A stretch of DNA of 64,000 nt from a virus. Below the pieces are notes generated by a model that saw nothing but the letters and a program-made list of their open reading frames with translations, did not search any database and had not been told where the DNA came from. Positions 2,235-46,636 of the stretch are shown here, piece after piece. The DNA is taken from positions 1-64,000 of IMG/VR virus record IMGVR_UViG_3300009159_008491. One strand, 5' to 3'. The stretch's first letter is position 1; every line of letters begins with the position of its first letter. A program made the translations under genes and the position numbers.

Positions 2235-2246
2235 AAAAATATAAAT

Positions 2247-3182
2247 ATGATATTAGATACAACAACGGATTCTATAGAAGTAAAATTAGCAGCCGCACAT
2301 ACAACAAGGGCTTTGCAATTTTATGCTTCATATCATATTATTGATTCAACTAGTTTTATATTTACTCCAACCAAAAATTTCGGTTCAACAAATGGTACAA
2401 CTGCAGTAACAATGGTTCCTGCTCCAACCTCTAGTAAATTAAATCAATTAAGATCTTGTTCAGTTTATAATTGTGATTCAATTGATCATACGGTTACAAT
2501 TCAAATAAATTCATCATCTAATTTGAGAACAGTATATTCTGTTATAATTAAAGTAGGAGAACAAATTCAATTTACACTTTATGAAGGATGGAAAATATTT
2601 AATGTGGATGGAATTTTAAAAACTTCTAGTTCTGTAATTGGGGGTCCTGCAGTAAAACAAAGTATAATACCAAACTTTCAAGGCACTGCAGGAGGTACTT
2701 CACAAACAAGTGGAACAGATTTTGCTTATTATCTAGGAAAAGCAGATAGAAGTTATGACTCTGTAACTGTACAGATAAATGTTACTTCTGCTGTTGTTGG
2801 AGCAATAACATGGGCAGAAGCTGCGATATATAAAGGATACCCATCAATTGGAAGTAATGTAACACTTACAAGATGTGGTTTTGTTGATGTTTCCACTGGC
2901 TCCAATCATGGTGTGAATGCAACTGGTAATAAAACAATCGTTATACCAATAACAGATAAGAATTTATTTGTTGGTGATGATATATGGTTTGTTTTTGGGT
3001 GTGTAGTTGCAACTACAGGTCCAGCTTTCAAACATATAGGTTATGCAGATAATATAGGTTCTGGTATTGTACAAAGTGCAACTGGAAGTTTAAGACCATC
3101 AACAAACTCAAGTATATCATTTACTTTATCTACAACAATATTAACAATATTTGCTGCATGGTACGGAGCACAAAACGTATAA
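2247..3182 (+). CDS. Virion-type protein, paralogue 2 of 4
   Basis: 311 residues, the closest relative of the next gene. Long stretches agree at both protein and DNA level, for example around 2494-2580 against the matching part of the next gene, which suggests recent duplication or gene conversion. It carries the family landmarks: DTTTDSIEV at the N-terminus, SGTDFAYYLGKADR, ITWAEAAIYKGY, CGFVDVSTG and GSLRPSTNSS. Only 12 bases separate it from the previous stop, so the group is probably one transcript. A TATAAATA string overlaps the start codon here and is too close to be its promoter. Function is inferred only from position. Confidence 0.6.
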   Translation: MILDTTTDSIEVKLAAAHTTRALQFYASYHIIDSTSFIFTPTKNFGSTNGTTAVTMVPAPTSSKLNQLRSCSVYNCDSIDHTVTIQINSSSNLRTVYSVIIKVGEQIQFTLYEGWKIFNVDGILKTSSSVIGGPAVKQSIIPNFQGTAGGTSQTSGTDFAYYLGKADRSYDSVTVQINVTSAVVGAITWAEAAIYKGYPSIGSNVTLTRCGFVDVSTGSNHGVNATGNKTIVIPITDKNLFVGDDIWFVFGCVVATTGPAFKHIGYADNIGSGIVQSATGSLRPSTNSSISFTLSTTILTIFAAWYGAQNV

Positions 3183-3186
3183 AAAA

Positions 3187-4122
3187 ATGACATTAGATAC
3201 AACAACAGATTCAATAGAAGTAAGATTAGCAGCCGCTCATACAACTAGAGCTTTGCAGTTTTTTGCTTCTTATACCAACCTTAATGTTTCTAGTGCTACG
3301 AATACTCCAACAAAAAACTTTGGTTCAACAAATGGCACAACTGCAGTAACAATGGTTCCTGCACCAACTTCTGGAGTAATAAATCAACTAAGATTTTGTT
3401 CAGTTTATAATTGCGATTCTGTTGATCATACGGTTACAATTCAAGTAAATTCATCATCTAATTTGAGAACAGTATTTTCTGTTATAATTAAAGTAGGAGA
3501 ACAAATTCAGTTTACACTTGGCGAAGGTTGGAAAATATTCAATGTGGATGGTATTTTAAAAACTTCCAATTCCACTATCGGCACTTCAGCAGTAAAGTCT
3601 GCAGCTTCTATTTTCAATCAACAAGCAAGTGTTAATTCATCATATACTTCAGGTACTGATTATGCTCAATATTTGGGCAAAGCAGATAGGAATTATGATA
3701 CAGTAACAATTCAATTGGATATTCCAAACATAGTTGGTGCAACCATAACATGGGCTGAGGCTGCAATATACAAGGGTTATCCATCCATAGGAAGTAATGT
3801 AACGCTCACAAGGTGTGGTTGGGTGGATATTTCTACTGGAACAAATCATGGTGTTAATAGTACCGGAAATAAAACTATTGTAATTCCAATAATAGATAAC
3901 AATTTATTTGTTGGAGACGAAATTTGGTTTGTTATTGGATATGTTAATACCGGCGGTTCAGGTACATTAAGGATTGGTTCTTTAGGAGACAATATTGGAG
4001 CCGGTTTGGTACAGACAGCCACCGGAAGTTTAAGACCATCAACCAATTCAAGCATATCTTTCGCCATATCTTTAACACGTGCACCAATATTTGTTACATG
4101 GCAAGGTACTCAAAATGTTTAA
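3187..4122 (+). CDS. Virion-type protein, paralogue 3 of 4
   Basis: An upstream ATG at 3151 is in frame but lies inside the previous gene. The ATG at 3187 gives MTLDTTTDSIEV, which matches the N-terminus of paralogue 2 and gives the same length of 311 residues, so I use it. The landmarks are conserved: SGTDYAQYLGKADR, ITWAEAAIYKGYPSIGSNV, RCGWVDISTG and GSLRPSTNSS. Differences from paralogue 2 concentrate around residues 140-160 and near the C-terminus, so those may be the variable surface-exposed parts. Only four bases separate it from the preceding stop codon. Function unknown; probably a virion surface protein. Confidence 0.6.
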   Translation: MTLDTTTDSIEVRLAAAHTTRALQFFASYTNLNVSSATNTPTKNFGSTNGTTAVTMVPAPTSGVINQLRFCSVYNCDSVDHTVTIQVNSSSNLRTVFSVIIKVGEQIQFTLGEGWKIFNVDGILKTSNSTIGTSAVKSAASIFNQQASVNSSYTSGTDYAQYLGKADRNYDTVTIQLDIPNIVGATITWAEAAIYKGYPSIGSNVTLTRCGWVDISTGTNHGVNSTGNKTIVIPIIDNNLFVGDEIWFVIGYVNTGGSGTLRIGSLGDNIGAGLVQTATGSLRPSTNSSISFAISLTRAPIFVTWQGTQNV

Positions 4123-4143
4123 AATTAAAAACAATAATAAAAA

Positions 4144-5055
4144 ATGGTAATAGACAATACAAACGAAACTATAGAACTTGTTTTAGCTGGTGCAGTAACA
4201 ACTAGCCAAGCAACTTTTACTTGTTCTTTTAATGAAATTTCATCTACAACTTTTACAGGAAATGAAACAAATGGTACAAGTAATAATACCACTGCAGTTA
4301 CATTGATTTCTAGTCCTTCAGCTGGATTTCAAAGACAATTGAGGGAGTTAATAATTGAAAATAATGACACCGCAACTATGACTGTTACCATTAGATATAA
4401 TAATACATCAGTAACAAGAATTATAATGAAGGCAATTATTGATTCTGGTGATAGTTTAACTTATACAGCAGATGGTGGATGGAATTGTAAAAATACAAAT
4501 GGCTCAATTAGGTATTATAATATTCATGTAAATCAAACAGGCAATATTAGAGGTCCTGAATATTTTAATTTAGCTACTTCAGCTAGTAGTGTTTCGCTTT
4601 CAACTACTGTTGTTGGTCAATATTTAGGTAAGGCGGAAAAAGCATACGCTTCAATAGATTTCAGATACCAAGTAGATACGGCAGCTGTTACAATAACTTT
4701 TTGTGAACTTGCTGTGTATAGAATATCAAATAGACTTAGTATAGGAACTCAACAAGTATGGACTAGATTAGGTTATACAGATACATCAGGAATTTGGAAT
4801 AGTACTGGCTTAAAAACAACTAACGTTGCTCTTACAGGATGTAGAACTGGTGATGATTTATATGCAATTTGGGCAAGTAATGCTACAACATCAATGGCAC
4901 CAAGAGGTGGCAACATAGCTGATCCAACATCATCTATTCTACAAACAACAACAAATACTGTTTCAAGTTGGAGGCCTAGTACATCTCCTTTATATCAAGC
5001 AACAAGTTTTACAGCAGCTGCAGCTGCTATATGGTTTAATTGGCAAGGCAATTAA
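4144..5055 (+). CDS. Virion-type protein, paralogue 4 of 4
   Basis: 303 residues and the most divergent paralogue. It keeps the N-terminal frame (VIDNTNETIELVLAGAVTT), a QYLGKAEKAY motif, an ITFCELAVYR segment in place of ITWAEAAIYK, and WRPSTS near the end. Its stop codon (5053-5055) overlaps the stop of the convergent glycosyltransferase (5052-5054) within a single TTAA, so there is no intergenic space at this strand switch and no hairpin terminator is visible. By position it is part of the fibre module. No enzymatic motif is visible. Confidence 0.6.
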   Translation: MVIDNTNETIELVLAGAVTTSQATFTCSFNEISSTTFTGNETNGTSNNTTAVTLISSPSAGFQRQLRELIIENNDTATMTVTIRYNNTSVTRIIMKAIIDSGDSLTYTADGGWNCKNTNGSIRYYNIHVNQTGNIRGPEYFNLATSASSVSLSTTVVGQYLGKAEKAYASIDFRYQVDTAAVTITFCELAVYRISNRLSIGTQQVWTRLGYTDTSGIWNSTGLKTTNVALTGCRTGDDLYAIWASNATTSMAPRGGNIADPTSSILQTTTNTVSSWRPSTSPLYQATSFTAAAAAIWFNWQGN

Positions 5056-7418
5056 ATAAACTTGCTCAATTTATCTATTACTGTATTTGATTTTATAGAT
5101 TTAGTACATTCAAATTGTCTTGAAGTTCCTTTGTGTCTTGGGCACCAATTCCAATCTGATGGATCTAAACGAAAATCATTAAAACAACCATTACATGTAT
5201 TTATTGGATCGTTGACAAATATTCTTTCGCAATCTGTCATTTCACAATTAGGTCTTGAAAATCCACTTATTAAAAATATTTTTTTATCAAGTGCCCACGC
5301 AACCCATGAAAGACCACTTCCAAGACCAATAAACCCTTCAGAATGATATAAAATGTTACATATTTCTTTTATAGATTTATCATTAATTTTAATTACTCCT
5401 TTAGGATTTTTATTTCCCATATAATCATCTGGTTCTTTAGAAAGTAAAAGAACATCATAACCTTTTGATTTTATGTAATCAACAACTTCCTGCCATCCAT
5501 TAGGATTGTTCCAATATTTTGCTTGAGCTGTTGAGTGGTTAGCTATACAAAAATATTTATTTTCTATTGGTCTTTCACTTGGAATAAAATCAATTTTTGG
5601 TTTTACTTCTTTAAAATCTAATCCAAGAATATCTGTTGCTGTTTTTTGTAAATGTTGATCTCTAAAGTTTAAGGGATTTTTACTAGAAACAAATTCATTT
5701 TTATCATCATAAAACCATCCAATAGTAAACATTTTATATAAGTTGTGAACTATGGATCCGGGTTTAACAAATTCTATTTCAGGATAATTTTTTTCAAAGA
5801 AATCATTATGGAATGTAGAACAAATAACTTTTGCATTATGTGTTTTCCTAAATTCATCAACTTGTGGAAACCATGCAATAGTATCTCCTAAGGAAGAAGA
5901 ATCTAAATGTATATATACTCTTTGGTTTTCAAAAGAAGGTTTTAAAATATGTTTTTCATTTTCTACTTTATATTCAATAAAAAAATCTCTATGATATTCT
6001 CTATTTAATTGACCAAACATATTATTTTTTAAAGTCGTTTCATATAAAAGATTTTTTGTTTCTTCATCAAAGAATCTAAATTTCACTTCTGTTTGATCAT
6101 CACATTCTAAATTAATTTTAGGTTCTTTAAAATAGTTTAAGCTAACTTCAACATTTTTTTTCTTTTTGGTTTTACTTAAAATGGGAGATTCTTTATAACC
6201 GTTAAGTAAAATATCTTTAAATTCTGTTTGATTGTTATCAATTTTCATAATATTGTTAGTTGAATTTAATTCTATAAATATTGCTCTGTGGTCTTGGTAA
6301 TTGAAATATATTGGACTTTTACTTTTAATTTTTTCAACAATTTCTTCAAGATTGTTTTTGCCAGATCTATTATTGTTTTGTAGGTGAGTATTATCACAAA
6401 AATAATTGATTATACAATTTATTTTCTTGGCAATATTCAAAATTTTATCACCATTATCAAATGAATTTATTCTTATGAATGCATAATCTAATTCAATAAA
6501 TTCATCTAAGAAAATATCATGGTCAAAAAATAAAACTTTTAATTTTTCTAACTGCTTTTGATCATAATGAAAATTAAAAAATCCAACTTTGCATCTTTTG
6601 TTTTCCCAGTTTAATTTACTTAAATATGTTGATTCGGCAGCTTCGTATACATCATCAAAAAAATCATTTTTTCTTGGGTAAATTAAGTTTAGTTTTTTTC
6701 TTCTTTCTTTTGCTTCTTTGATTAATATTACTTCTCCTCTAATGTTCCAGTTTCTAAAATTTTCTGAATCCCAATGTTGTCTTGCTAAATAAGTTGTTCT
6801 AGGAATTGTTAACCATTTCCCTTTTTCTTCAAGGTTGATAAGCCACTGAGCATCATTTGATGTACAAACATCACTGTCTTCATGAACTTTAAAATTTAAA
6901 TTTGGTATATTTCTAAATATTCTTAGATAACCAAAAATTCCACTTCTATCAGGTGTCAATCTTTCAAAGGCCTCTAAAAAAGAATCATTATCTCTTGAAA
7001 TATAAACATTGTTTATAAATGAATTAAGAAAGTTATCTTTTGAATCAGGAAGGTTATCTTGATGTTTATTGGCATTAAAATGTAGAAAAATTACATCTGG
7101 AAACTTTTTAAAATAATAAACTATTTTTTCAAATGTATTTGGTAATATCTTATCATCTCCGTCAATAGGACAAACAATATCTCCCTTTGCGTGTAATTGA
7201 GGGTTCCACCAAATTTCTTTTTTATAATTAGGCTCTACGATTTTTATTCTTTTATCATGGTTGGCTAATGCTATAAGTTTTTCTTTTGTTTTATCAGTAG
7301 AAAAATCATCAGCTATAATCCATTCCCAATCTTTATAAGATTGACTTAAAATAGATTCAGATAATTCTTTGATGTAATTTTCTGAGTTGTAAAAAGAAGT
7401 TACGATTGATAATTTCAT
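5052..7418 (-). CDS. GT2 fused to TibC-like (BAHT) O-heptosyltransferase
   Basis: 788 residues in two enzymatic parts. Residues 1-230 are a GT-A family 2 glycosyltransferase: LSIVTSFYNSENYI at the N-terminus, a DDFSTD nucleotide-sugar motif near 37-42, and a PIDGDD metal-binding motif at 84-89. Residues 500-788 are a GT-B domain of the GT9/autotransporter-heptosyltransferase type, with HLDSSSLGDTIAWFP at about 504-518, SGLSWVAWAL near 701-710, and four cysteines at 742, 745, 759 and 771 around WNWCPRHKGTSRQFEC. In TibC-type bacterial heptosyltransferases, which put heptose on autotransporter serines, four such cysteines bind iron. The middle 240-490 is unassigned. It is last in a minus-strand glycan operon and abuts the Ser-rich fibre module. 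A role in virion protein O-glycosylation is inferred. Confidence 0.85.
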   Translation of the reverse strand: MKLSIVTSFYNSENYIKELSESILSQSYKDWEWIIADDFSTDKTKEKLIALANHDKRIKIVEPNYKKEIWWNPQLHAKGDIVCPIDGDDKILPNTFEKIVYYFKKFPDVIFLHFNANKHQDNLPDSKDNFLNSFINNVYISRDNDSFLEAFERLTPDRSGIFGYLRIFRNIPNLNFKVHEDSDVCTSNDAQWLINLEEKGKWLTIPRTTYLARQHWDSENFRNWNIRGEVILIKEAKERRKKLNLIYPRKNDFFDDVYEAAESTYLSKLNWENKRCKVGFFNFHYDQKQLEKLKVLFFDHDIFLDEFIELDYAFIRINSFDNGDKILNIAKKINCIINYFCDNTHLQNNNRSGKNNLEEIVEKIKSKSPIYFNYQDHRAIFIELNSTNNIMKIDNNQTEFKDILLNGYKESPILSKTKKKKNVEVSLNYFKEPKINLECDDQTEVKFRFFDEETKNLLYETTLKNNMFGQLNREYHRDFFIEYKVENEKHILKPSFENQRVYIHLDSSSLGDTIAWFPQVDEFRKTHNAKVICSTFHNDFFEKNYPEIEFVKPGSIVHNLYKMFTIGWFYDDKNEFVSSKNPLNFRDQHLQKTATDILGLDFKEVKPKIDFIPSERPIENKYFCIANHSTAQAKYWNNPNGWQEVVDYIKSKGYDVLLLSKEPDDYMGNKNPKGVIKINDKSIKEICNILYHSEGFIGLGSGLSWVAWALDKKIFLISGFSRPNCEMTDCERIFVNDPINTCNGCFNDFRLDPSDWNWCPRHKGTSRQFECTKSIKSNTVIDKLSKFI

Positions 7419-7419
7419 G

Positions 7420-8349
7420 TTATATTAATTTACTTACTGTGGTACTTTCTTCTAAAAATTTTTGTGTATTTGAATCATATAAATCTACATCCATATAAAG
7501 CATATTGTTTCCGAATATTTTTACATAATGTGTGTTTTTTTTAAGTTTAATTAAATTAAAATTTCCACTTTCTAACCAAAAATTATATACATTGCTATCT
7601 TCTATTATATTAAAAATCATAGGTTCTTTTGAATAGTTATAACATAAAACATAATAATCGCCATTGTGTGGAAAAACTATGCCCCAGTAAAGAAAATCTC
7701 CTGAGCATAATCCGGTTGAAAAATTTTCATTAGTAGCTATTAAATTAAAATCTTTCTTATATACATTATTCTTAAGAAATCTAGTGTGTAAAAATTCTTC
7801 ACATAAAATATCTAAATTTTCTAATAATTTATTTTCGTCATATAAAAAGTCAGAATAATTTAATTTATTTAAGTTAATACATAAATAATTACCACTCATC
7901 CATTCTTGATTAAAGTATCCAACAGCATTATAATTAGAACTTCTTAAAATATTTAAATTTTCATTAAACTCTTTTATGCTTGATATTTTACTATCGTATT
8001 CAACATAATGTACAACATCGTATTTTAAAGTTTTTGCCATTGTGAATCCATTAAATAAAATTCTCATTACAGCTAAAAAAGTATTTTGTCTAGCCGGTAA
8101 CTTAGATGCAAGATCTACTAATTGACTAGAAAAACTTGAATATCCAATATATTTTTTATCAGTTAATAATTTATTTTCTTTATCATATATGAAGTAATCA
8201 CATTTTCTTAAAATTATTTCTTCTGGAGCTATATGAGAACTAATCATTACTTCTTTTCCATTTTCTTTGAAAAAATTAACTAAATCTAACAATAGATCTT
8301 TTTTTTCTTTCGTATTTGAATAGTCTCCTATTAAAATTAAATCTTTCAT
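7420..8349 (-). CDS. Glycan-operon protein, possible glycosyltransferase
   Basis: 309 residues, not recognised. The N-terminus (MKDLILIGDYSNTKEKKD) and the segment VVHYVEYDS near residue 110 look like an alpha/beta fold with an acidic pair, as in GT-A enzymes, but no canonical DxD or sugar-binding motif is convincing. The C-terminal 100 residues are beta-rich and may be a separate binding domain. The gene sits one base from the fusion glycosyltransferase downstream and one base from the acyltransferase upstream, so it is co-transcribed with glycan genes and probably acts on the same product. Confidence 0.5.
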   Translation of the reverse strand: MKDLILIGDYSNTKEKKDLLLDLVNFFKENGKEVMISSHIAPEEIILRKCDYFIYDKENKLLTDKKYIGYSSFSSQLVDLASKLPARQNTFLAVMRILFNGFTMAKTLKYDVVHYVEYDSKISSIKEFNENLNILRSSNYNAVGYFNQEWMSGNYLCINLNKLNYSDFLYDENKLLENLDILCEEFLHTRFLKNNVYKKDFNLIATNENFSTGLCSGDFLYWGIVFPHNGDYYVLCYNYSKEPMIFNIIEDSNVYNFWLESGNFNLIKLKKNTHYVKIFGNNMLYMDVDLYDSNTQKFLEESTTVSKLI

Positions 8350-8350
8350 A

Positions 8351-8902
8351 CTAACTCAAATAAATGTTTTTTCTTTTTTTAATAAATTTGATTGGTGTTC
8401 CAGCAACAACATCAAATGGATTTGTATTTTTGTTTACTAATGAATTTGAGCCAACTGAAGTAGCAAATTCTAAAACAGTTTCAGGTAAAATAACAGTATT
8501 GCATCCTATAACTACGTGTTTTCTTATTAGAATATCACCAGTTTTAACTTTTTTAAATTCATCAGCAACAACGGAATTTGTCATATACCCTTCCGTATAA
8601 TCATCATTAGATGTATACAATATGCAACGAGCAGAAGTACAAGTATAATCTTCTAATGTTATATTACCACTATTACCATAATAATAACAACCTGCAGAAA
8701 TATGAACATTATTACCTATAGATATTTTACTATCTTTTCCTGCAATCAAAATACATTGTGAATCTATTCTTACGTTATTACCTATAGTGATGTTTTGAGG
8801 GTTATGAAATATAACATCGTTAGAAATAAAAACATTTTCACCAATAGTTAAATTTGATTCCAAAAGTTCTTCTCTAGAATAATTTTTGAATGTTCTGATC
8901 AT
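8351..8902 (-). CDS. Hexapeptide-repeat acyltransferase (WbbJ/CysE-like)
   Basis: 183 residues of left-handed beta-helix hexapeptide repeats (LTIGENVFISNDVIF, ITIGNNVRID, ISIGNNVHISAG, VVIGCNTVILPE) ending in VVAGTPIKFIKKR, the usual C-terminal signature of sugar O-acetyltransferases. It probably transfers an acetyl or similar acyl group from acyl-CoA to a sugar or sugar nucleotide, as a trimer in the cytoplasm. The start overlaps the stop of the DegT-like gene by four bases, which implies translational coupling. With a DegT-type protein beside it, N-acylation of an amino sugar is one reasonable role. The fold is certain; the substrate is unknown. Confidence 0.85.
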   Translation of the reverse strand: MIRTFKNYSREELLESNLTIGENVFISNDVIFHNPQNITIGNNVRIDSQCILIAGKDSKISIGNNVHISAGCYYYGNSGNITLEDYTCTSARCILYTSNDDYTEGYMTNSVVADEFKKVKTGDILIRKHVVIGCNTVILPETVLEFATSVGSNSLVNKNTNPFDVVAGTPIKFIKKRKNIYLS

Positions 8903-9528
8903 TGTTTATAGATTTCAAATTTTGATAAATCAGGATAAGGCAATTCTAAATCAGGATTGTTTTTTGGACTTCCGTCTATATTATAAAATTGATTCATTAA
9001 CAAACATCCTCTTGCAGCTAATTCAGGCATCATATAAAAATTCCAACCAAGCATGTCAAAGTGATCATCATGATATGAACACTCTCTCCTACCGCTATAC
9101 CTAGCTCTTTTAAACCATAAATAAGCTTCGTAGTTATCAGTTAGTATTGCACCGCCTTTTGATAATTTAAAGTGCTTATAGGGGCCTGTAAAAGAAATAC
9201 ACATATGTTGTCCGGGTATGTACATATCTGATGTAAATCTAAGTGCTGAATCCCAAACATTAGTAGGTTCTAATTGATAAGCCCCTTTAATTGTTTTGCC
9301 TTTTACTGGTTTAAATTTAACTTTAGCTCCAGCATGAATAATTTCACAAGGAACAGAAGGATAAGTTCTTGATGGAATTGTTATTTCTGTGTCTTTGACT
9401 TTTTCAAACATTAGTGCTAAGAATAAAGCATTGCTTTGGTTGTCAACAGTAACACAATAAGGTGCCCCAGTGTAATCACACAGCATTTTTTCAAAATCTT
9501 CAGTAATTTTATAAATTCCGTTTGCCAT
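8899..9528 (-). CDS. Compact DegT/DnrJ/EryC1-like aminotransferase homologue
   Basis: 209 residues, about half the usual 370-400 of this PLP-dependent sugar aminotransferase family. It retains the large-domain landmarks: TVDNQSNALFLAL (phosphate-binding start), IPSRTYPSVP, the pyridine-contacting Asp in VWDSALR, and the Schiff-base lysine region SFTGPYKHFKLSKGGAILT. The C-terminal small domain is missing; the protein ends just after MMPELAARG. A sibling of the same compact design lies at 38169-38780, and the two share the tail YPDLSxxxI, so this is a stable short form rather than a random truncation. It may be an aminotransferase acting with a partner, or a sugar-binding or isomerase-like derivative. 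Confidence 0.75.
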   Translation of the reverse strand: MANGIYKITEDFEKMLCDYTGAPYCVTVDNQSNALFLALMFEKVKDTEITIPSRTYPSVPCEIIHAGAKVKFKPVKGKTIKGAYQLEPTNVWDSALRFTSDMYIPGQHMCISFTGPYKHFKLSKGGAILTDNYEAYLWFKRARYSGRRECSYHDDHFDMLGWNFYMMPELAARGCLLMNQFYNIDGSPKNNPDLELPYPDLSKFEIYKQ

Positions 9529-9529
9529 A

Positions 9530-12500
9530 TTATAAATTATATTTAGTTCTATTGTATTCTTTATTTCTTAATAAATCGTTCAACTCTAATCCAAATTGAG
9601 TAAACTCTCCATTTCTAGCGATTCCGTATTGATAGTACCATGAATAATCTAAGTGATAAATCTTTGGATCATCATATTTCTCGTTTATTCTTTTTGTACC
9701 TTCAAATTCATTTTTCCAAGGATTCTCATTTTCAGTCATATTTTCTAAAAGAAAATCTTTATTCCAAAAGCAAGCATTGTGTGAAAGTAGATATTCACTA
9801 TTAATCTTTTGTTTTAAAACTCTTTTATCATTGATAAAATAATTAGTTTGTTCTAGATCATAATTAAAGAATGTTTTTTCGTGAATTTTTAAACAGTTCC
9901 ATTCAAAGTGTTTCATTAAATACAAACTATCTTCAAAAGTCTTTTTATCTATTTTTTTGTGTAACCACATATCATCTTGAATATACAAGATGTATTTAGT
10001 TTTTATTTTAGTTAAAATATCAATCAATCTATTACTGAAACCAGATGAATCATGTGATCTAATTGTATTTAATTGTTTAATTCTGCTATCGCTAAAATTT
10101 AATTTTTCTTCTTCATTACAGAAATAAATGTCCCAGTTTAATGACCAATCCCAATTTTCTTTAAATGAATAATACCAACCTTTCCATAGAAAATTATATT
10201 TGTCACACGTTTGAACTATTACAGTAATATCGTCATTCTCAAAATTTACCGGTAATGAATTTTTTTCATGTAAAATATATCCATCTTTAAATTTATAATC
10301 TATGTTTGATATACTAGGATATTGTAATGCATAAGGTCTACTGAAAATTCCCTTTTTAAAATCAGTGATAAAATTATTATACCATAAATCAGAAACGTCC
10401 CAAGGAGTATTTTCAAATTTTGATTTGAAATAATCGTATTTATCTTTTAAAATTAAAATACAATGTGCTTCAGAAAGTGTATTTGTCAAATAAAAATCCT
10501 CCTCTACTTTTTCATGATCTAAATTAGGTATCTTTTTCCCAAAACTTATATAGGCTAAATCATGTTTTTTCGCATATTGGTAAGCTCTAAAAATAGTTTC
10601 AGACATTTCTTTTTCTGAAAACTGTAAAATACTATCACACTCATTTAAAAGTATTGCATCCACATCATCATTTAAACCTTCTTCTATTCCTTGTCTATGA
10701 GAAAGGTAACAACCGTAATGTCCGGGGCCTAATAAGTAATCTCCCGGTGATTCAGAAATTTGACTTGGTCTATTACAATTTTCTTTAGGTGGCAATCCCT
10801 TAAATAAGGGATTTATAATTTGTTGATAGGTGAAACCATAATTTTCTAATGTTCTTAAAGAGTTGATAGAAGATATTTCTCTTTCCGATTCAACATTGTT
10901 CAGAAGATGAACTATTTTAATTTTTGGTTTTTTTTCTGCTTTAAAAATTAGAATACTTTCAATATCAATATTTCTATCTTCTTCAACTTCAAATCCACAA
11001 CGAATTAATTTGTTCTTAATTTTATTTTCATAGTCAGAATGTGATCCTGCAAATGCGTGAACTTCTCCGGTAATGAATTTGACATTATTTCTTAAATAAC
11101 CTTCATCTATGGTTTCAAAGAAAGGAAACTCTCCTCCTTCACAATCAATTTTAAGATAATCTATTTTTTCAATGCTATATTCTTGAATTAAAGAATTGGC
11201 ATCAATTGATTTAACTTTTATAGAATTATCTTCAAATTTATATCCAGAAAGATTTTCACTTTGTTTAAATATAGTATGTATACTAGATGAATCACCAACG
11301 AAGAAATCAACTTCTCCTCTGTTATAATCTATTGCATATTGTATAGGTATAATTTCTTTGAATTGAAAAGTATTCTTTTTTAAATTTTCAAAGTTTTTTG
11401 GTTCTGGTTCTACACTATAAACTTTAGAAGCCCCTTGATCAAGAGCATATAAACTGAGAAATCCTAAATTAGATCCAATATCTAAAACCACATCCCCTTT
11501 TTTAATTCCTTTATAATCATTTCTTATGTAAACTTCATAGTAAGTAAACCATGAGGATTGATCAAAATCTTCATGAGAAATCATAATTTCTTTACTTTCT
11601 ACTTTTGGTGTTAATTTATGTTCGAAATTATTCTCAAAAATTACTTTATCAAAGTATGAGATATTATTTTCTTTATCAAAAACTTGAACCAGAAAACCAT
11701 TAAATGTATATCTTGAAGCATTGGAACTAAACCAAAAACTTGTTCCTGATTGAAAAATAAAATCAAGAACATAATTTGTCAAAAGATTATAACTGTCTTT
11801 TAAAATAATGTTTAATTTTTTCCCATTTAGTTCAGGACAATGCAAACATTTAACATCAAATTTATGATCTATTTCATTATAAGAAACATCAATGTAATTA
11901 TATTTGAGTCGTAGGTTTAATGTTTGTTTTATTAACTCTAAATTAGTATTAGTATCAAGTAAATAATTTACATTGTCAAATTTGTAAAAATAATTTTGAT
12001 AAACATCTAAATTATATAATAAGATAGGGATCTTCCATCCTATTGATTCTCTCAATACTAAAGGCATTGTTTCTTTATCACCATTTTGGCCTCTGGAAGT
12101 AAAAAGAAACAAATCCATACAAGAGTAAAAATTATCAGTATCATTTCTTTCGCCCCAAATTTTGCAATTTGAAGGTATATTATTAAGCAATGGTTCCCAA
12201 TAAAATTTAAAATTATCTGCTTGATTTCCTAGAAAATGAAATTGTACAGTATCATCAAAATATTTAGCTAATTCAAATATTTCAGCCTGATTTTTTCTTG
12301 GAGTAAATAAACCTACATTTAAAACATGTTTCTTTTTAGGGTCCAATCCTAACTTTAATAATCCTTCTTCTCTATTTGGTCTTTCCTTGTATTCAATAGG
12401 GTATTCTGCTAAGTATTTAGGAACATTTATATTTTTATATTGTTCTATTTGCCAATTGCTTACAAAGAAAAAAGCATCCGGAAAATATACTTTTTTATTA

Positions 12501-12871
12501 TCAGGATCAAATGAAGAATCATGGCTTGTTTCAAAGATCTTATATTTTCTATTTTTTGTATAAATTAAATCTGAAATTTCACTTGGTAAAAAATATTCTG
12601 GTATTTCTTCTAAATGAATAAAATCAGGATTAATTTTGTTAATTAAATTTATTAAATCTTCTTTTTTATTTTCTCCTAGAGTTATAAAATGTTGATTATC
12701 AAGAAGTTGTTCAATTTTATTTCTTTGTACTACTAATACCCCACCAGTTATATTTTCATATTCAATGCAAAAGATTTCTAAATCATTTTTTAGAATTTCT
12801 ATTTTTTTAACAAGATATTGAGGTAAGCCACCAGTAGATAAATGTGGAGCAATAAATATAATCTTCTTCAT
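9530..12871 (-). CDS. Four-domain GT4-FkbM-GT25-like-GT-A fusion protein
   Basis: 1113 residues with at least four modules. Residues 1-320 are a GT-B family 4-like glycosyltransferase (IFIAPHLSTGGLPQYLV at the start; NVGLFTPRKNQAEIF near 185). About 340-440 is a beta-rich linker. Residues 455-645 are an FkbM-type SAM methyltransferase (VLDIGSNLGFLSLYA, YSVEPEP, IDYLKIDCEGGEF). About 650-860 is GT25-like (GPGHYGCYLSHRQGIEEGL, but NECDS where GT25 enzymes carry an acidic EDD-type motif). Residues 880-1113 are GT-A-like, starting TVIVQTCDKY and holding YIQDDMW at 963-969. One chain could thus perform several consecutive steps on one glycan. It is the first gene of a five-gene operon, with a 79-base upstream gap that probably holds the promoter. 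Confidence 0.8.
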   Translation of the reverse strand: MKKIIFIAPHLSTGGLPQYLVKKIEILKNDLEIFCIEYENITGGVLVVQRNKIEQLLDNQHFITLGENKKEDLINLINKINPDFIHLEEIPEYFLPSEISDLIYTKNRKYKIFETSHDSSFDPDNKKVYFPDAFFFVSNWQIEQYKNINVPKYLAEYPIEYKERPNREEGLLKLGLDPKKKHVLNVGLFTPRKNQAEIFELAKYFDDTVQFHFLGNQADNFKFYWEPLLNNIPSNCKIWGERNDTDNFYSCMDLFLFTSRGQNGDKETMPLVLRESIGWKIPILLYNLDVYQNYFYKFDNVNYLLDTNTNLELIKQTLNLRLKYNYIDVSYNEIDHKFDVKCLHCPELNGKKLNIILKDSYNLLTNYVLDFIFQSGTSFWFSSNASRYTFNGFLVQVFDKENNISYFDKVIFENNFEHKLTPKVESKEIMISHEDFDQSSWFTYYEVYIRNDYKGIKKGDVVLDIGSNLGFLSLYALDQGASKVYSVEPEPKNFENLKKNTFQFKEIIPIQYAIDYNRGEVDFFVGDSSSIHTIFKQSENLSGYKFEDNSIKVKSIDANSLIQEYSIEKIDYLKIDCEGGEFPFFETIDEGYLRNNVKFITGEVHAFAGSHSDYENKIKNKLIRCGFEVEEDRNIDIESILIFKAEKKPKIKIVHLLNNVESEREISSINSLRTLENYGFTYQQIINPLFKGLPPKENCNRPSQISESPGDYLLGPGHYGCYLSHRQGIEEGLNDDVDAILLNECDSILQFSEKEMSETIFRAYQYAKKHDLAYISFGKKIPNLDHEKVEEDFYLTNTLSEAHCILILKDKYDYFKSKFENTPWDVSDLWYNNFITDFKKGIFSRPYALQYPSISNIDYKFKDGYILHEKNSLPVNFENDDITVIVQTCDKYNFLWKGWYYSFKENWDWSLNWDIYFCNEEEKLNFSDSRIKQLNTIRSHDSSGFSNRLIDILTKIKTKYILYIQDDMWLHKKIDKKTFEDSLYLMKHFEWNCLKIHEKTFFNYDLEQTNYFINDKRVLKQKINSEYLLSHNACFWNKDFLLENMTENENPWKNEFEGTKRINEKYDDPKIYHLDYSWYYQYGIARNGEFTQFGLELNDLLRNKEYNRTKYNL

Positions 12872-13871: not shown

Positions 13872-16400
13872 TTATAGAGATAAAATTTGATCTTTTAAAT
13901 CTCTTAAAATTGGTAAAAAATAAACCTGAGCATCTTCAAAAGTCTCAAAAAACCTTTCTGTGTCATCCAGATATTGATTAGATGCTTTCCTATCCACAAT
14001 TTTACCGAATTTTAAATACTGAATACTAAAAACTAAAATTCTTATTGAATTCCAAATTCTTTTTTTTAATCTTGTTAAATCTTTTGAATTAAAATATTTT
14101 TCAGAGTCATTAAAATGAGAATCAGAAATTTGAATAGCTTTAGTTTTAAATTCTTCTTTTGTTATATTTGTTGAAAATTCAATTCTTTGTAATATTTTAT
14201 AAGTATCTTCTTCAGTAAAATATTGGAAGAAATTTCTGTCAGATAACAAATTTGTTTCATTAAATGCTGGAACAGCAAATTCATTCAATTGGTACTGAAA
14301 AGTTCTTGGGTTGTATAATGAAAAATCTATGTCACCAATTTTAAAATAATTAACATCTGAATTAGTATCAGCTACTATTGTAATATCAGCATCAGAAGAT
14401 GCTTGAACTTTTTCATAATAGTGTGCCCCATTAACATAAATATTATAAATTGCACTTTCTGGTATATTTAATCTTCTTGCTAAACTAGCTAATGTTAATG
14501 AACTATCATTAAAAATATTAAATAATTTTTGATTAACAGTTGTTCCTGAGTTTGATGAAAAACCATTAATAATACTAAACCCAGCACTATTAGCTGGTAT
14601 ATTTACATAATTTAAAGGAATATTATCCGGTCTATATTTTTGTAAAAAACTATCATCATATTTTTGATCGACAAACCCATTATACATTAATCTACACTTA
14701 TCAAAGCTTTTTACATCTATGTATTCATTGTATGAAAAACTAGATAAATCATAAAACTCTTCAAGATAAATAACTAAATATTGTAATATTTGATTTGGAT
14801 TTTTTGCTGGTCTTAATGAAAGAACAATTGGTGATCTGACTGGCCAATTTTTATAAATTTTTATATCTACGCTTTTTACAACATCACCCACATCAAAATG
14901 AATTATAAATTTATCAACATTAAAATATATATTATTAAGAACATCTAAACTTACGGAGTTAATTCCATCATCTGGTCCAAGTAAACCAACTGAAAAATAT
15001 TCATATTGAACAATAACATCTTTATATTTTCTAGGATCTCTGTGTGCTATATTTATTTTTAATGTATTATCTGATAAATCATCAAAAAGTTGACCTATAA
15101 AATCTAAATTGTCCCAAGATGGATTTTTTACAAAGTTAAACTCCGGTTTTATTAAATTAGGGATATTTGGATTGTTACCCATGCTTCCAGTTCCCATACT
15201 AGGCATATTTGTTCCAAATATTCCACTATCAAAAATTGAATATGTTTGAGGTATTAAATCAATTACTTGCTGATATATATATTTGTAGTTTGCTTGTTCA
15301 GGATATACAAAAGGAGGAGAGAAAGGCTTATATAAAAAACCATACCAATTTGAAAATTCAGGAAAGCTTTTAAAATTTGCTTTTTTAAAAAGACTGTTAT
15401 ATTCAAGATTACCACCACTAGCTGATGCTGTAGAATTTACTAAGTTTTGTAAATAGTTTTGATCATAAGCTATTGGAATACTTATGACTTGATTGTTTGG
15501 TGTGTCATAATAGATACCATCAGCTAAAGTTATTGTTGCTTGTTGGGAAGGCTGTTGACTATTATTATTATTAGAAAGTGCTAGTTGTGGTAGAAAATTA
15601 TCTGGTAATAAACCATTGTACTTTTCTAAAGATTCTTTTGAAGGTCCATAATTTGAATTTGATAATTCTTTTAATTTTAATATTTCTTCAATATTTCCAT
15701 ATTTAGATAAAATACTAAAATTATTTTTATAAGTATATTTTGTATAATCTATTGTTCCTTCACAGGTATCTATAAAATATTCAGAAAAATCATCTGTAAA
15801 AATTGTTGTCTTATTTGTATTGATTTGAATATTGACATAATAATTTTCACTGTCTCCACTAAAGTTTATAAAATCAGTTTGCCTCGTAGCATTTGTATAG
15901 TTATTTGGTACAGATTTTCCAGCATTATTAACGGTGTTAGTGTAATAACTAGTTAATGCATTTGTTTTTAAATATTTTTCATCTTGATTAAAAAGAGATT
16001 GTTTCTTTTCAATAAGATTTATGTTTGGGTCCGATGTTTCTTCAGTTTGTTCTTGATTAGAATAGCTTATATTTTTTCTGTAATAGCTATTAAAAAATTC
16101 TGCTAATTTTTTATTATCGTAAAAAAGATCTCTAAATTCATCAAGAGTTAATAATTTTTTTAAATAATCAACAAAATTTATTGCAATTTTTTCGTTTTGT
16201 GGCATATCTAAATATGCCTTTACATTTAAATCATTTACAATCCCTACTCCAACTTGTGAAGTATAAGAAAAATATTCTTGATCTAATCCTACATTTTGCT
16301 GAGTTTCATATAGAACATCTTGCTGTACTGTTTCCAGTAAAGCATCAGTATTAGTATTTGCACTGAAAGCGATATTATATAATATTTCAAACTTTTGCAT
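13872..16400 (-). CDS. Large hypothetical baseplate/tail protein
   Basis: 842 residues, not recognised. Asn- and Tyr-rich with long low-complexity polar stretches (for example LALSNNNNSQQPSQQA near 275-290) between folded-looking segments. A central part (about 440-560) reads as beta-sandwich, and the C-terminal 150 residues are predicted helical (TEEDTYKILQRIEF onward). It starts one base after the stop of the 115-residue gene, so the two are coupled. Its size and its place among gp25/gp6-linked genes suggest a baseplate-periphery or fibre-connector component. Confidence 0.5.
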   Translation of the reverse strand: MQKFEILYNIAFSANTNTDALLETVQQDVLYETQQNVGLDQEYFSYTSQVGVGIVNDLNVKAYLDMPQNEKIAINFVDYLKKLLTLDEFRDLFYDNKKLAEFFNSYYRKNISYSNQEQTEETSDPNINLIEKKQSLFNQDEKYLKTNALTSYYTNTVNNAGKSVPNNYTNATRQTDFINFSGDSENYYVNIQINTNKTTIFTDDFSEYFIDTCEGTIDYTKYTYKNNFSILSKYGNIEEILKLKELSNSNYGPSKESLEKYNGLLPDNFLPQLALSNNNNSQQPSQQATITLADGIYYDTPNNQVISIPIAYDQNYLQNLVNSTASASGGNLEYNSLFKKANFKSFPEFSNWYGFLYKPFSPPFVYPEQANYKYIYQQVIDLIPQTYSIFDSGIFGTNMPSMGTGSMGNNPNIPNLIKPEFNFVKNPSWDNLDFIGQLFDDLSDNTLKINIAHRDPRKYKDVIVQYEYFSVGLLGPDDGINSVSLDVLNNIYFNVDKFIIHFDVGDVVKSVDIKIYKNWPVRSPIVLSLRPAKNPNQILQYLVIYLEEFYDLSSFSYNEYIDVKSFDKCRLMYNGFVDQKYDDSFLQKYRPDNIPLNYVNIPANSAGFSIINGFSSNSGTTVNQKLFNIFNDSSLTLASLARRLNIPESAIYNIYVNGAHYYEKVQASSDADITIVADTNSDVNYFKIGDIDFSLYNPRTFQYQLNEFAVPAFNETNLLSDRNFFQYFTEEDTYKILQRIEFSTNITKEEFKTKAIQISDSHFNDSEKYFNSKDLTRLKKRIWNSIRILVFSIQYLKFGKIVDRKASNQYLDDTERFFETFEDAQVYFLPILRDLKDQILSL

Positions 16401-16401
16401 C

Positions 16402-16749
16402 TTATTTATTAATAGTTATAGAAAAAATTTCTGCTTTTTTTATTAAGTTTTCTGTAGTTGGAACTAAAACATTATAGTTGTTTGATGATGTTCCAGTTAT
16501 TCCAGTAGATCTAATGCTCTCAAAAAATCCATATTCTATAAACCACGGATTTATAAATTGACGTTGCATATCAACTCTTAGTGGATCTTTTTGTATATCT
16601 ATATACTCGTCAATAATTCTTATTTCTCTGTTTAAATTAAGGTTAATATAATAGTCCTTAATGTTTTGAGTTCCGTAGGTTCCATCTGGTTGTACAACAC
16701 CATCTTCTCTTAGATCTAAATATAATTTTACTTTTAAGTTTTTTTCCAT
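16402..16749 (-). CDS. Small hypothetical tail-region protein
   Basis: 115 residues, not recognised. It starts MEKNLKVKLYLDLREDG and is beta-rich, with aromatic residues around NPWFIEYGFFES and a C-terminus rich in Ile. No membrane segment or metal motif. It sits between two very large structural genes, with gaps of 12 bases upstream and one base downstream, so it is probably co-expressed in fixed proportion with them and could be an adaptor. Confidence 0.45.
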   Translation of the reverse strand: MEKNLKVKLYLDLREDGVVQPDGTYGTQNIKDYYINLNLNREIRIIDEYIDIQKDPLRVDMQRQFINPWFIEYGFFESIRSTGITGTSSNNYNVLVPTTENLIKKAEIFSITINK

Positions 16750-16761
16750 TTTTTTTGTTTT

Positions 16762-19700
16762 TTAAAAATCGTTTGATTTTATCCAAGTAATTCCATTATC
16801 TGAACATGATGGTCCCCGTTGAGAAACAGGGATAGCACTAAATCCAATAGCTTTGCGAGCAGCGGTATTTGATGCTGTTGCAATAAAACCATGTACTATA
16901 AATGATTTGTTAATATTGGGATCTTGTGATAATACTCTAACATTTAAAATAGTAGGATCACAAACAAATAAAGGTGGTTGTGTTAAACGTAATCTTGTAT
17001 TTACTAAAACTCTATTATTAAAAACAGAAGTTAAATAAAATCTTTCTTCATTAAAACGAGGAGCACCACCGGCAATATTTATATTGGCAATTATTTCAAA
17101 AGGTGGAATTGTTTGATTAATAATTTTGTTAGAAGGTAATCCATCCGATTCATTATATAAAACAAAGTTTAAAAATGAAACTTTATATTTTGATGTTGTG
17201 AATTTGTTTAAAGTAACATTATTTATTGTTCTCTTAAAATTATAATTGGTTGGTAATTTTAAAACAAGTTGATCTAATGGAGTTACTACGTTTTTAACTA
17301 AACCTCCACTATTTGATGTTGATATTGCATATTCGCTTAGCCATAATTTTTCTCTAGGATTTATTATTGTGTCTAATATTTTAACTGGAATTACACCCTC
17401 ATTAACAATTTCTATTACTGCTTGATTTTTTGTATTTATATTAGCTTGGCTCCAAGTATAAAGAAATCCATTTTTAAGCCAACTTGGTGTATTACTGCTA
17501 AAATATTTTGTTGCCGCTACAAAACTATCAATTGTATTTGTTTGAGGATTAGCATTTACATCAGTAAATGTTTTTAAATAATATCCTGCTTGTACTATTA
17601 ATTGACCAAAATCAAAAGTATTAGTATTTAATATTGCATTTGGATCTAAAGGTATAGTATAATCACTACATGGAAAACTTAAAATATTAGGATTTGTTGT
17701 AGATGCTGTATTAAAATCATTTTCAATTCCAACTACATCTTTATTTAAAAATATTTTAGCTGATGTTGATGCATCATCAGGTGAAAAACCTGCTGGTATA
17801 ACACTTCCTTTTGGTATTATTACTATGCCCGGATAATAAATTTTATTTGGACTAAAGTACAAATTATATGGTTTTGGGATTGAATATGGTGCACTATAAT
17901 TTGCTACTTCATTTGTTATAGATATTTCTTTATTTATTTCCTCTGTTTTAAATTCAATCTGTGTATTTAAATTTTGTAATTGTGTTGTTGTATAATAAAC
18001 TTCTTTTTTATTATCATTTCCAGCATTAACATAAAAACTTTCTTCAAAATTATAATTATTATTTCTAAAAATTCCATTATAAATTTTAATAGTTAATAAA
18101 TTAGTAGTTTTAAAATCATCATTTGTTGGTGAAACTGAAGGAATATAATTATATGTTTGATTTTGTATTTCAATTTGATAATTTACCTTTTGAAAACCCC
18201 AAATAGATGCTCCTGATAAATTAAGACCTAGTATATTACTTCCTATTCCCGGAAAACCTTCAAAATATTCAAAATTATCATTTGCTGGTAATTTTAAAAT
18301 AAATTGAGAGCCATCGTATATGAATTGACCGCTTGATACACTAGTGCTAAAACCAGAATATACATTTAAACTTAATGTATCTCCATTATCATAGGTATTA
18401 CCATCAAATACAATTCTTCCTCCAAGATTTTTAATATTTATTTTAAAAAAATCTTCAAATACTAAATCCCTAAATTTATACGGCTGTATGTTTCCAGTAA
18501 TTATGGTATTTGCTAATATATTACCAAAAGAAGAACCATCAAATGTTTGTAGTTTTGTTATATAATCTTTATATGATCCAAATTTATTATAATAATTAGG
18601 ATCTAATGGTTTATTAAAAACACTTCTTAAAACTGCTTTGCCACTTTGTTTATCAAAAGGTATATTTATTTGAACATAATTTTTATCAATATTTTTATCT
18701 ACATATAAAACAAACTTGTTATCATTTGATTGATTTAAATTTCCGGGCACTACATTGGATGTAAAATTCCTAAGTCTTAAAGTTATTTTAGTTTGTAAAT
18801 CATCACTTCTTCTTGATATAAAATAAAAATTGGTAGAATAAGATAAATCAACTTGATTAAATTCAAATTTATGGGAATTTGTATAAGCAGTGCTGTTAGG
18901 ATCTAAAAATCCAAATGTTGAAAGACAATCTGTCTCTGCCTCATCAATATATAATTCTAAACTTTGATTAGGTACTAATAATTTTTTATCAAGATTTAAA
19001 GTTATAGGTATGATTAAAGGATCTATATCTTGCCTTGGTTCTAAAAATTGATATGATTGAGAATTAAAAGTAACAGTTGAAGGGATGTCATTATCTTCAA
19101 TATAAATAGACATCATCTGTGCTTTTTCTGGATCAGGAAGCACTCCTAAGATTGGAACTATTTGTAGTGTTAGTCTTTCTAATTTCTCAACATAAAAATC
19201 ATCGTTTAATCTAAGGCTTATTTTTTGCACAGTACTTGCAGAAGTACTATTCCACTCAATATTATTAAAATTAAGTACTACATCTTGTGGCACAGTAACA
19301 TTTGTATATTCGTTAAAATCTTTATCTAGACCATAAACAACACTTAATTTTATTCTCTCTACACCTCTTGGCGGCTTACTTAAAGCTACATCAAATTGAA
19401 TTATTTTATTATTTGTAAAATCCGATTGATTTGGATCTCCTTCGGTGAATGTTATGTTTGATTGTGGGAAATAAACAAATGGTGGTCCAGTAGGTTCCAA
19501 TTCTCTTCTTAACCAATGTCTATCATAAAAGAAGGGATAATTATTATTAATTTCTAATATATTACCGTCATCTAATATTTCAGCAATTTCGCTACCGTAT
19601 TCCAATACTTTACTTTCTTCGTTAAAATATAAGAATGGAAATTCTTGTTCAGAATATAAACTATTTACTATGTCATTTATTTTTACATAAATTGACTTAT

Positions 19701-20157
19701 TGCTGTTTGTAATAGAATTTAAATCAAGTTCAAAAGGAAAAAAATATTGACCCTTTTTTTTGCCATAAATATTTTTACTTAAATCTCCATTTGAAAAATC
19801 TAATGATTTACTTACTGAATTCCATGATGTTGCTGATAAACTAGAACTTTTATCATAAAACCAGAAAGGATAACTATTGTTTGTAAGACCCGTGCCAAGA
19901 TTTGTTGATGAATCACCAATTCTAAAATTTAATTGTAAATTATTGCAATTTCCCCATTTAGATTCAACCTTACCATATAAACAAAATTTTGCAGAAGCAT
20001 TTCTTTCTTCTTCAAATTTTATTGACATATCAAAAAGATTATCAGCTTTATCAGGTTTTAAAATATTTTTTTCTCCCGATAATTCTGAATTAATGTATAA
20101 TGCAATATTTTTTGCATTTACATAATCTTTACTTGGTAATAATTGTTTATCGCTCAT
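16762..20157 (-). CDS. Large structural protein with Calx-beta-like domains
   Basis: 1131 residues. Residues about 230-345 fit a Calx-beta domain: ITFTEGDPNQ at the start, alternating strands, and an acidic loop NDDFYVEKLERLTLQIVP typical of the Ca-binding DD..E..E motif. A second divergent copy follows (STVTFNSQSYQFLEP onward). Calx-beta domains occur in large extracellular adhesion proteins and in phage receptor-binding proteins. The rest is beta-rich and Asn/Thr-rich. Only three bases separate its start from the stop of the 1174-residue gene. I infer a peripheral baseplate or fibre protein, perhaps calcium-stabilised. Confidence 0.6.
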   Translation of the reverse strand: MSDKQLLPSKDYVNAKNIALYINSELSGEKNILKPDKADNLFDMSIKFEEERNASAKFCLYGKVESKWGNCNNLQLNFRIGDSSTNLGTGLTNNSYPFWFYDKSSSLSATSWNSVSKSLDFSNGDLSKNIYGKKKGQYFFPFELDLNSITNSNKSIYVKINDIVNSLYSEQEFPFLYFNEESKVLEYGSEIAEILDDGNILEINNNYPFFYDRHWLRRELEPTGPPFVYFPQSNITFTEGDPNQSDFTNNKIIQFDVALSKPPRGVERIKLSVVYGLDKDFNEYTNVTVPQDVVLNFNNIEWNSTSASTVQKISLRLNDDFYVEKLERLTLQIVPILGVLPDPEKAQMMSIYIEDNDIPSTVTFNSQSYQFLEPRQDIDPLIIPITLNLDKKLLVPNQSLELYIDEAETDCLSTFGFLDPNSTAYTNSHKFEFNQVDLSYSTNFYFISRRSDDLQTKITLRLRNFTSNVVPGNLNQSNDNKFVLYVDKNIDKNYVQINIPFDKQSGKAVLRSVFNKPLDPNYYNKFGSYKDYITKLQTFDGSSFGNILANTIITGNIQPYKFRDLVFEDFFKINIKNLGGRIVFDGNTYDNGDTLSLNVYSGFSTSVSSGQFIYDGSQFILKLPANDNFEYFEGFPGIGSNILGLNLSGASIWGFQKVNYQIEIQNQTYNYIPSVSPTNDDFKTTNLLTIKIYNGIFRNNNYNFEESFYVNAGNDNKKEVYYTTTQLQNLNTQIEFKTEEINKEISITNEVANYSAPYSIPKPYNLYFSPNKIYYPGIVIIPKGSVIPAGFSPDDASTSAKIFLNKDVVGIENDFNTASTTNPNILSFPCSDYTIPLDPNAILNTNTFDFGQLIVQAGYYLKTFTDVNANPQTNTIDSFVAATKYFSSNTPSWLKNGFLYTWSQANINTKNQAVIEIVNEGVIPVKILDTIINPREKLWLSEYAISTSNSGGLVKNVVTPLDQLVLKLPTNYNFKRTINNVTLNKFTTSKYKVSFLNFVLYNESDGLPSNKIINQTIPPFEIIANINIAGGAPRFNEERFYLTSVFNNRVLVNTRLRLTQPPLFVCDPTILNVRVLSQDPNINKSFIVHGFIATASNTAARKAIGFSAIPVSQRGPSCSDNGITWIKSNDF

Positions 20158-20160
20158 TTT

Positions 20161-38780: not shown

Positions 38781-38784
38781 ATTT

Positions 38785-39324: not shown

Positions 39325-39325
39325 A

Positions 39326-41831: not shown

Positions 41832-41895
41832 ATTTGATTAATATTATAATACTTTATAATAATAAGTAATTTTTAATCAAATGTAAATTTTTATT

Positions 41896-43597: not shown

Positions 43598-43603
43598 AAA
43601 TTA

Positions 43604-44158: not shown

Positions 44159-44160
44159 AA

Positions 44161-44748: not shown

Positions 44749-44749
44749 T

Positions 44750-45160: not shown

Positions 45161-45161
45161 T

Positions 45162-45869: not shown

Positions 45870-45912
45870 TTTTTAAAATTAATTTTGTTTAATCAAAAAG
45901 GAATAATAAAAA

Positions 45913-46623: not shown

Positions 46624-46636
46624 ATTATTAAAATGA

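Follow-up and report, generated by a model that had tools for sequence, protein, structure and literature searches.

Why would a virus place several sugar-transferring enzymes and a methyltransferase on one polypeptide chain? The question is raised by IMG/VR virus record IMGVR_UViG_3300009159_008491 (93,819 bases), of which the first 64,000 bases, here called the window, were analysed. The window is A+T rich (24-32% G+C), and its minus strand carries at 9530-12871 a single unbroken open reading frame (ORF) with an ATG start and no internal stops, encoding 1113 residues. An earlier note, made from the sequence alone, proposed that this protein holds four enzymatic modules working on the same chain of sugars, perhaps in the order in which those sugars are linked. 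We find that the four enzyme-like modules are real and separate, and that two features beyond that note accompany them: a fifth part, which is a beta domain, and an adjacent gene for a TibC-like O-heptosyltransferase. This neighbour suggests a role for the protein: it probably lengthens and methylates glycans within an O-glycosylation system that the phage encodes and directs at proteins of its own virion.

The five parts of the protein

The division of the chain is supported by matches to PF00534, to PF05050 and TIGR01444, by PF01755 matches among homologues, and by an AlphaFold model. GT stands for glycosyltransferase and SAM for S-adenosylmethionine.

9530-12871, minus strand: 1113-residue multi-module protein, in the order GT4, beta domain, FkbM, GT25-like, GT-A-like
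11918-12871, minus strand: GT4 module, residues 1-318 (PF00534, E 1.1e-8 over residues 173-315; alignment A3; profile match to 2iv7)
11621-11899, minus strand: beta domain, residues 325-417, seven predicted strands (AlphaFold secondary structure, hhalign)
10976-11554, minus strand: FkbM-family SAM methyltransferase, residues ~440-632 (PF05050, E 2.8e-16; TIGR01444, E 4.2e-21)
10286-10930, minus strand: GT25-like module, residues 648-862 (PF01755 family matches, hhalign, invariant motifs)
9563-10231, minus strand: C-terminal GT-A-like module, residues 881-1103 (AlphaFold secondary structure, acidic motif; no library family)

The model of the whole chain has a mean predicted local distance difference test score of 85.4, with low confidence at residues 403-405, 418-421, 537-540 and 854-872 (homologue L082 was left out of the rows sent to structure prediction). 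At a predicted template modelling score of 0.48, the model does not fix how the modules are arranged towards one another. A search of PDB sequences with the full 1113-residue query returned generic methyltransferase matches only. Three distinct sequences have exactly these five parts in this order: the window, L001=L002=L035 (56% identical to it) and L059 (52%, from a 148-kb record). These two other full-length homologues make a chance fusion or an assembly error unlikely as the source of the ORF.

The GT4 block (residues 1-318) is conserved in 85 viral or metagenome-assembled genome sequences. It has the PF00534-type C-terminal domain, the E-X7-E pair (E267/E275) and the basic donor-binding residue (K193) expected of a GT4 enzyme, and this pair, K193-N194-Q195 and H117 are invariant across 10 diverse relatives in alignment A3. 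The sole PDB match of its profile was WaaG/RfaG (2iv7, E 5e-5), a weak match that falls in the generic C-terminal half of GT4. WaaG glucosylates the heptose of the lipopolysaccharide (LPS) core.

The beta domain that follows is probably non-catalytic. Against the beta-barrel at the N-terminus of BAHT (TibC-like) enzymes, its profile gave the strongest non-trivial match among 78 profile pairs (hhalign probability 69%; P 4.6e-5 for this one pair, or ~0.004 when corrected for all 78), a resemblance which is suggestive only. In TibC itself, removing the beta-barrel abolishes heptosylation of TibA (PMC4358343).

The FkbM module scores above the curated cut-offs of both its families (PF05050, 60.5 bits with a cut-off of 22.7; TIGR01444, 75.9 bits with a cut-off of 37.7). 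It carries DIGSNLG, which fits the SAM-binding DxGxNxG pattern, together with EPEP and YLKIDCEGGE, and is predicted to be a SAM-dependent O-methyltransferase acting on a sugar.

For the next module, the window's sequence on its own scores below the PF01755 cut-off (E 0.029, 14.7 bits, cut-off 24), so we call it GT25-like and not GT25. Seven of its 12 homologues do match PF01755 (best E 7.1e-6), and a true GT25 of the same phage (45162-45869) can be aligned with the family profile across 140 columns (hhalign P 5.5e-4), while a search of PDB sequences with that profile gave no meaningful match. The module contains GHYGCYLSH, and its acidic motif is E-x-D instead of the usual E-D-D, the middle D being replaced by C, G or S. 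H718-Y719-G720, E744-x-D746 and W824-D825..D828 are invariant in the 12 homologues. The earlier note had allowed that the site might be inactive in all homologues, and the unbroken retention of E744-x-D746 (12/12) speaks against this.

Searches of Pfam, NCBIfam, PHROG and PDB sequences with the C-terminal module (residues 881-1103), by sequence or by profile, gave no meaningful match. The module's label of GT-A-like is based on the AlphaFold secondary structure, a conserved acidic motif and its placement beside or fused to glycosyltransferases. It is confidently predicted as an alpha/beta domain whose order of strands fits a GT-A transferase, the acidic motif (Q965-D966-D967-M-W) comes after the central strand, and D890, Y892, D967, W1036 and W1078 are invariant in 16 homologues. 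Residues 650-1113 could in principle have formed one non-enzymatic domain; they are instead predicted as two alpha/beta domains joined by the low-confidence linker at 854-872. The folds proposed for both of these modules come from structure prediction and motifs. When viral contigs were scanned with the single sequence of either module alone, zero relatives were found, and a five-sequence alignment did find them.

A constant TibC-like O-heptosyltransferase partner

What reaction might such a protein extend? The best indication is the gene encoded nearby on the same strand:

5052-7418, minus strand: 788-residue partner with GT2 (residues 1-280), a linking region and a TibC-like BAHT O-heptosyltransferase (residues 445-785, window 5064-6086) (TIGR04414, 4rb4, PF00535)

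The BAHT part belongs to TIGR04414 (E 8.7e-88, 294.8 bits with a cut-off of 200) and matches the TibC structure 4rb4 at E 8.4e-55. The catalytic Asp and the iron-finger Cys residues of TibC are defined in PMC4358343. In our alignment the Asp is kept (LGD at the position of D110A), as are the four Cys (CNGC, WCPRHK, FEC). The partner is therefore a clear relative of the TibC/Aah enzymes, and may, like them, form a dodecamer and transfer heptose to an acceptor Ser. Known TibC/Aah members modify autotransporters of Gram-negative bacteria, whereas this one is phage-encoded, fused to GT2 (PF00535, E 8.1e-20) and accompanied by a GT4 extension protein.

We sampled the GT4 family by scanning viral contigs, genome contigs and described phages, which gave 85 modules in 48 clusters at 90% identity. 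A BAHT domain lies in the same locus, 0 to ~6 kb away or fused to GT4, in 44 of the 48 clusters; in the remaining four (L088, L090-L092), the sequence fetched stops shortly past the GT4 gene or within the GT2 part of the next gene. The minimal form of the pairing is a GT4 gene followed by a touching or overlapping BAHT gene (L070, L071, L074), and direct fusions also occur as GT4+BAHT (L076) and GT4+N309+BAHT (L075). The GT4 subfamily looks essentially phage-borne, since no more than four loci came from the scan of genome contigs: one is a fragment, and the other three have the same gene set of phage type.

This type of BAHT was present in 4 of 50,697 described phage records, one of them an isolate, Microcystis phage Mel-JY01. 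There, the gene at L114:4747-8430 is annotated only as 'methyltransferase FkbM'; it holds N309 and BAHT domains, so the annotation overlooks a glycosyltransferase. The same gene stands behind a 1016-residue collagen-like frame.

Exchange of modules among relatives

Does the order of the modules spell out the order of the sugars? Relatives share the GT4 head and differ greatly in the body behind it, which may be N309, N309+GT25-like, FkbM, FkbM+GT25-like, FkbM+FkbM, FkbM+GT2+N309 or others. The window has its own member of the N309 family, directly beyond the partner gene:

7420-8349, minus strand: 309-residue protein of the N309 module family, fused directly behind GT4 in relatives

This protein has no library match in the window, yet N309 is the commonest module fused behind GT4 among relatives; its profile is weakly similar to that of the GT25-like module (hhalign P 0.004).

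FkbM stands ahead of GT4 in L027 and L110 and comes last in L061. The modules are separate genes in L037, L060, L098 and L101; for example, in L037, L098, L101 and L102 GT4+N309+GT25-like, FkbM, GT-A-like and BAHT are encoded by genes next to one another. The GT-A-like module is a terminal fusion in the window, L001 and L059, a separate gene in L037, L060, L098, L101, L102 and L112, and the head of the BAHT protein in L087. On the GT4 tree of the 48 clusters, 16 changes of architecture are needed. In this tree the window's GT4 sits with the N309 lineages, and bringing the two FkbM+GT25-like lineages together is rejected (approximately unbiased test, p-AU 0.014), so it appears that GT4 heads and bodies were exchanged or that the FkbM+GT25-like fusion arose twice. 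The GT25-like tree is undecided on whether these two lineages have one history (p-AU 0.445 and 0.145).

Variable order, swapped bodies and 16 architecture changes favour a single pathway whose steps can be separated, and speak against a collinear code. An assembly line in which module order equals sugar order was therefore rejected, as both order and fusion state vary among relatives. Of the earlier proposal, the part that probably stands is that the modules serve one glycan pathway; the reading of their order as the order of glycan units is not supported.

Proposed pathway and its candidate acceptor

If the TibC-like enzyme starts a glycan, which protein would receive it? The leading candidate, not an established one, is a collagen-like fibre, of which the window holds one end:

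2-1309, plus strand: end of a collagen-like protein rich in Ser/Thr (GSSGSSG...), truncated at the record edge; candidate glycan acceptor

The association is closest in one clade (G005, G009 and G004, records of 150-164 kb), where the sole one or two collagen-like ORFs among 146-152 lie directly upstream of the GT4 gene, at gaps of 54-1351 bp; they are 36-46% Ser+Thr and up to 3007 residues long. In the window's own clade, 2.8-3.8 kb separate the BAHT gene from a collagen-like gene beyond it (window 2-1309; G016 16115-21039), and the frames of the near relative G016 are longer in the same setting.

Two further genes of the cluster have a place in the pathway that we propose:

8351-8902, minus strand: hexapeptide-repeat (left-handed beta-helix) sugar acyltransferase-like protein (PF00132, E 7.7e-9)
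8899-9528, minus strand: short (209-residue) DegT/DnrJ/EryC1/StrS sugar aminotransferase-like protein (PF01041, E 5.1e-15)

In GT4+FkbM relatives (L003, L004, L007, L008, L011), the acyltransferase-like gene is kept near the cluster, and the 209-residue length of the aminotransferase-like protein is conserved in the same five loci.

The pathway would run as follows. The TibC-like enzyme (5052-7418) would put the first sugar, probably heptose or another sugar taken from an activated donor, on Ser/Thr residues of a protein of the virion, for which the collagen-like fibre with its gene near the cluster is the most likely choice. The GT4 module would add the next sugar, after which the GT25-like, GT-A-like and GT2 domains would add more, and FkbM would O-methylate one of them, capping it or rendering it distinctive. 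The aminotransferase-like, acyltransferase-like and second-cluster (37-52.5 kb) genes would provide or modify rare sugars. Fusing the modules would raise their local concentration and fix their stoichiometry, with the order of sugars not being encoded by it. The finished glycan might serve receptor binding, particle stability or shielding.

Several results weigh against this account or parts of it. Besides the weakness of the WaaG match, the corrected significance of the beta-domain match and the GT-A-like module's lack of any library family, the link to collagen-like genes is uneven: among clusters with enough sequence, such a gene lies within 2 kb upstream (<=2 kb) in 10 of 21 N309-type clusters and in 0 of 15 others, L059 has its collagen-like genes ~100 kb off the cluster, and in the window ~3.7 kb lie between the collagen-like gene and the BAHT gene, which are on opposite strands. 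Genes of the heptose pathway (HldE- and GmhA-type were sought) were not recognisable in the window's record, so the donor would be host-derived or not heptose. Relatives G005, G006 and G009 have adenylyltransferase-like matches below the cut-off, and G004 has a fragment.

We tentatively suggest a more specific form of the pathway, which may well need revision: that large aquatic phages devote an O-glycosylation system to giant Ser/Thr-rich fibres of the collagen-like kind. Priming of the (G-S/T-S)n repeats would fall to a TibC-family enzyme, the constant GT4 would extend the primer, and an exchangeable set of FkbM, GT25-like, GT-A-like and N309 modules would write a lineage-specific outer glycan; the beta domain, if related to the TibC barrel, may serve to dock this arm onto either the acceptor or the TibC-like enzyme.

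Alternative explanations

The alternative that survives best keeps the single virion glycan pathway and changes only the acceptor, which would be a tail, sheath, baseplate or capsid protein. We regard this as possible, if on balance doubtful. In L042 and L043 the gene pair sits directly upstream of a sheath-looking gene (judged by eye) with no collagen-like gene near, and the window's cluster is flanked by baseplate-region genes on one side and by a series of ~300-residue Ser/Thr-rich paralogues (1329-5055) on the other; set against this, the association with collagen-like genes in G004, G005 and G009 is specific genome-wide.

It is also conceivable, although unlikely, that the 1113-residue protein and the BAHT enzyme act on the host, remodelling its surface glycans or a surface protein (serotype conversion, superinfection exclusion) and leaving the virion alone. 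Modification of host O-antigen is a known activity of phage glycosyltransferases, the partner's GT2 part matches PHROG 841 (GtrB-like) at E 1.2e-4, and WaaG, the PDB match of the GT4 profile, works on LPS core. However, GtrB-type enzymes are membrane proteins paired with a flippase, and the GT2 here is fused to a TibC-like protein transferase. The clusters moreover lie among phage structural genes (the window's setting is marked by a baseplate wedge gene at 25634-27490), and one clade adjoins its genomes' only collagen-like genes. The substrates of BAHT enzymes are proteins, not lipids (PMC4358343).

More doubtful again is the idea that the GT25-like and GT-A-like modules have lost catalysis and now bind carbohydrate or protein, leaving GT4 and FkbM as the only active parts. 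The E-x-D motif, the single-sequence Pfam score under the cut-off and the C-terminal module's lack of a family would all fit this. Yet the acidic motifs and their flanking residues are invariant in 12 and 16 diverse homologues despite identities to the window of down to 21-35%, as expected of active sites, and both modules occur in other fusions, the GT-A-like one also as a free-standing gene.

FkbM enzymes O-methylate glycans or small molecules. With the partner being related to a protein O-glycosyltransferase and the cluster genes situated in a structural region, it is very unlikely that the transferases decorate modified bases in phage DNA (DNA hypermodification), even if DNA-acting phage glycosyltransferases are well described in work cited by PMC12619734; no search aimed at base-modification genes was made.

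Comparison with described systems

The closest described analogue is A064R of the chlorovirus PBCV-1, which joins a beta-L-Rha-transferase, an alpha-L-Rha-transferase and a 2-O-methyltransferase in 638 residues that act together on one virion glycan (PMC9614988). Like A064R, the phage protein has glycosyltransferase modules and a SAM methyltransferase in one viral chain; the likeness is one of architecture. A064R differs in that its first module is GT-A, no GT4 is reported, its methyltransferase comes last, and its product is an N-glycan on the capsid of a eukaryotic virus. Its module order follows its reaction order, whereas the order in the phage relatives varies. PBCV-1 A111/114R has three glycosyltransferase modules in 860 residues for consecutive glycan steps (PMC7826918). 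It is likewise a multi-glycosyltransferase viral polypeptide, of other GT families and without a methyltransferase or BAHT partner. The earlier note's remark that no described protein has this arrangement may thus hold for the exact order, but A064R and A111/114R are viral precedents for the principle.

Virions of mycobacteriophages, which have a different host group, are also glycosylated; we know of no BAHT-containing or four-module system described for them. Both capsid and tail proteins are glycosylated there, according to the citation of Freeman et al. 2023 in PMC12619734. The TibC paper makes no mention of phages (PMC4358343), and a full-text literature search found no work linking phage heptosyltransferase, collagen and structural-protein glycosylation.

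Other genes of the window and its closest relative

Between the collagen-like and BAHT genes, four consecutive, apparently paralogous Ser/Thr-rich proteins of ~300 residues are encoded on the plus strand (1329-5055); G001, G002 and G016 have three such genes at the matching place. The closest relative (locus L142, G016:5310-10286) also has two tandem tail-sheath-like genes of 655 and 879 residues, both beginning MAQTVFVSPGVYTREQDFTFF.

A second sugar cluster occupies 37189-52540 on the minus strand. It encodes a GDP-mannose dehydratase, a short aminotransferase, a CDP-alcohol phosphatidyltransferase-like protein, several methyltransferases, a sulfotransferase, GT25, a DXD-type glycosyltransferase, FkbM, Glyco_trans_1_2 and GT2, along with several ~230-residue proteins that have no Pfam match. 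The window's two DegT/DnrJ-type proteins (8899-9528 and 38169-38780, both minus strand) have 209 and 203 residues, about half the usual length.

Implications

The C-terminal module, of ~230 residues, suggests that there is a glycosyltransferase-like family as yet missing from the libraries now in use. If the proposed role is right, phages would, like chloroviruses, make elaborate glycans on their own particles by means of self-encoded multi-enzyme proteins. Such a system would have a concrete start in the sugar that the TibC-like enzyme links to protein, would have collagen-like fibres as its candidate acceptor, and would hold in the reshuffling of its modules a means by which the particle surface could be altered quickly.

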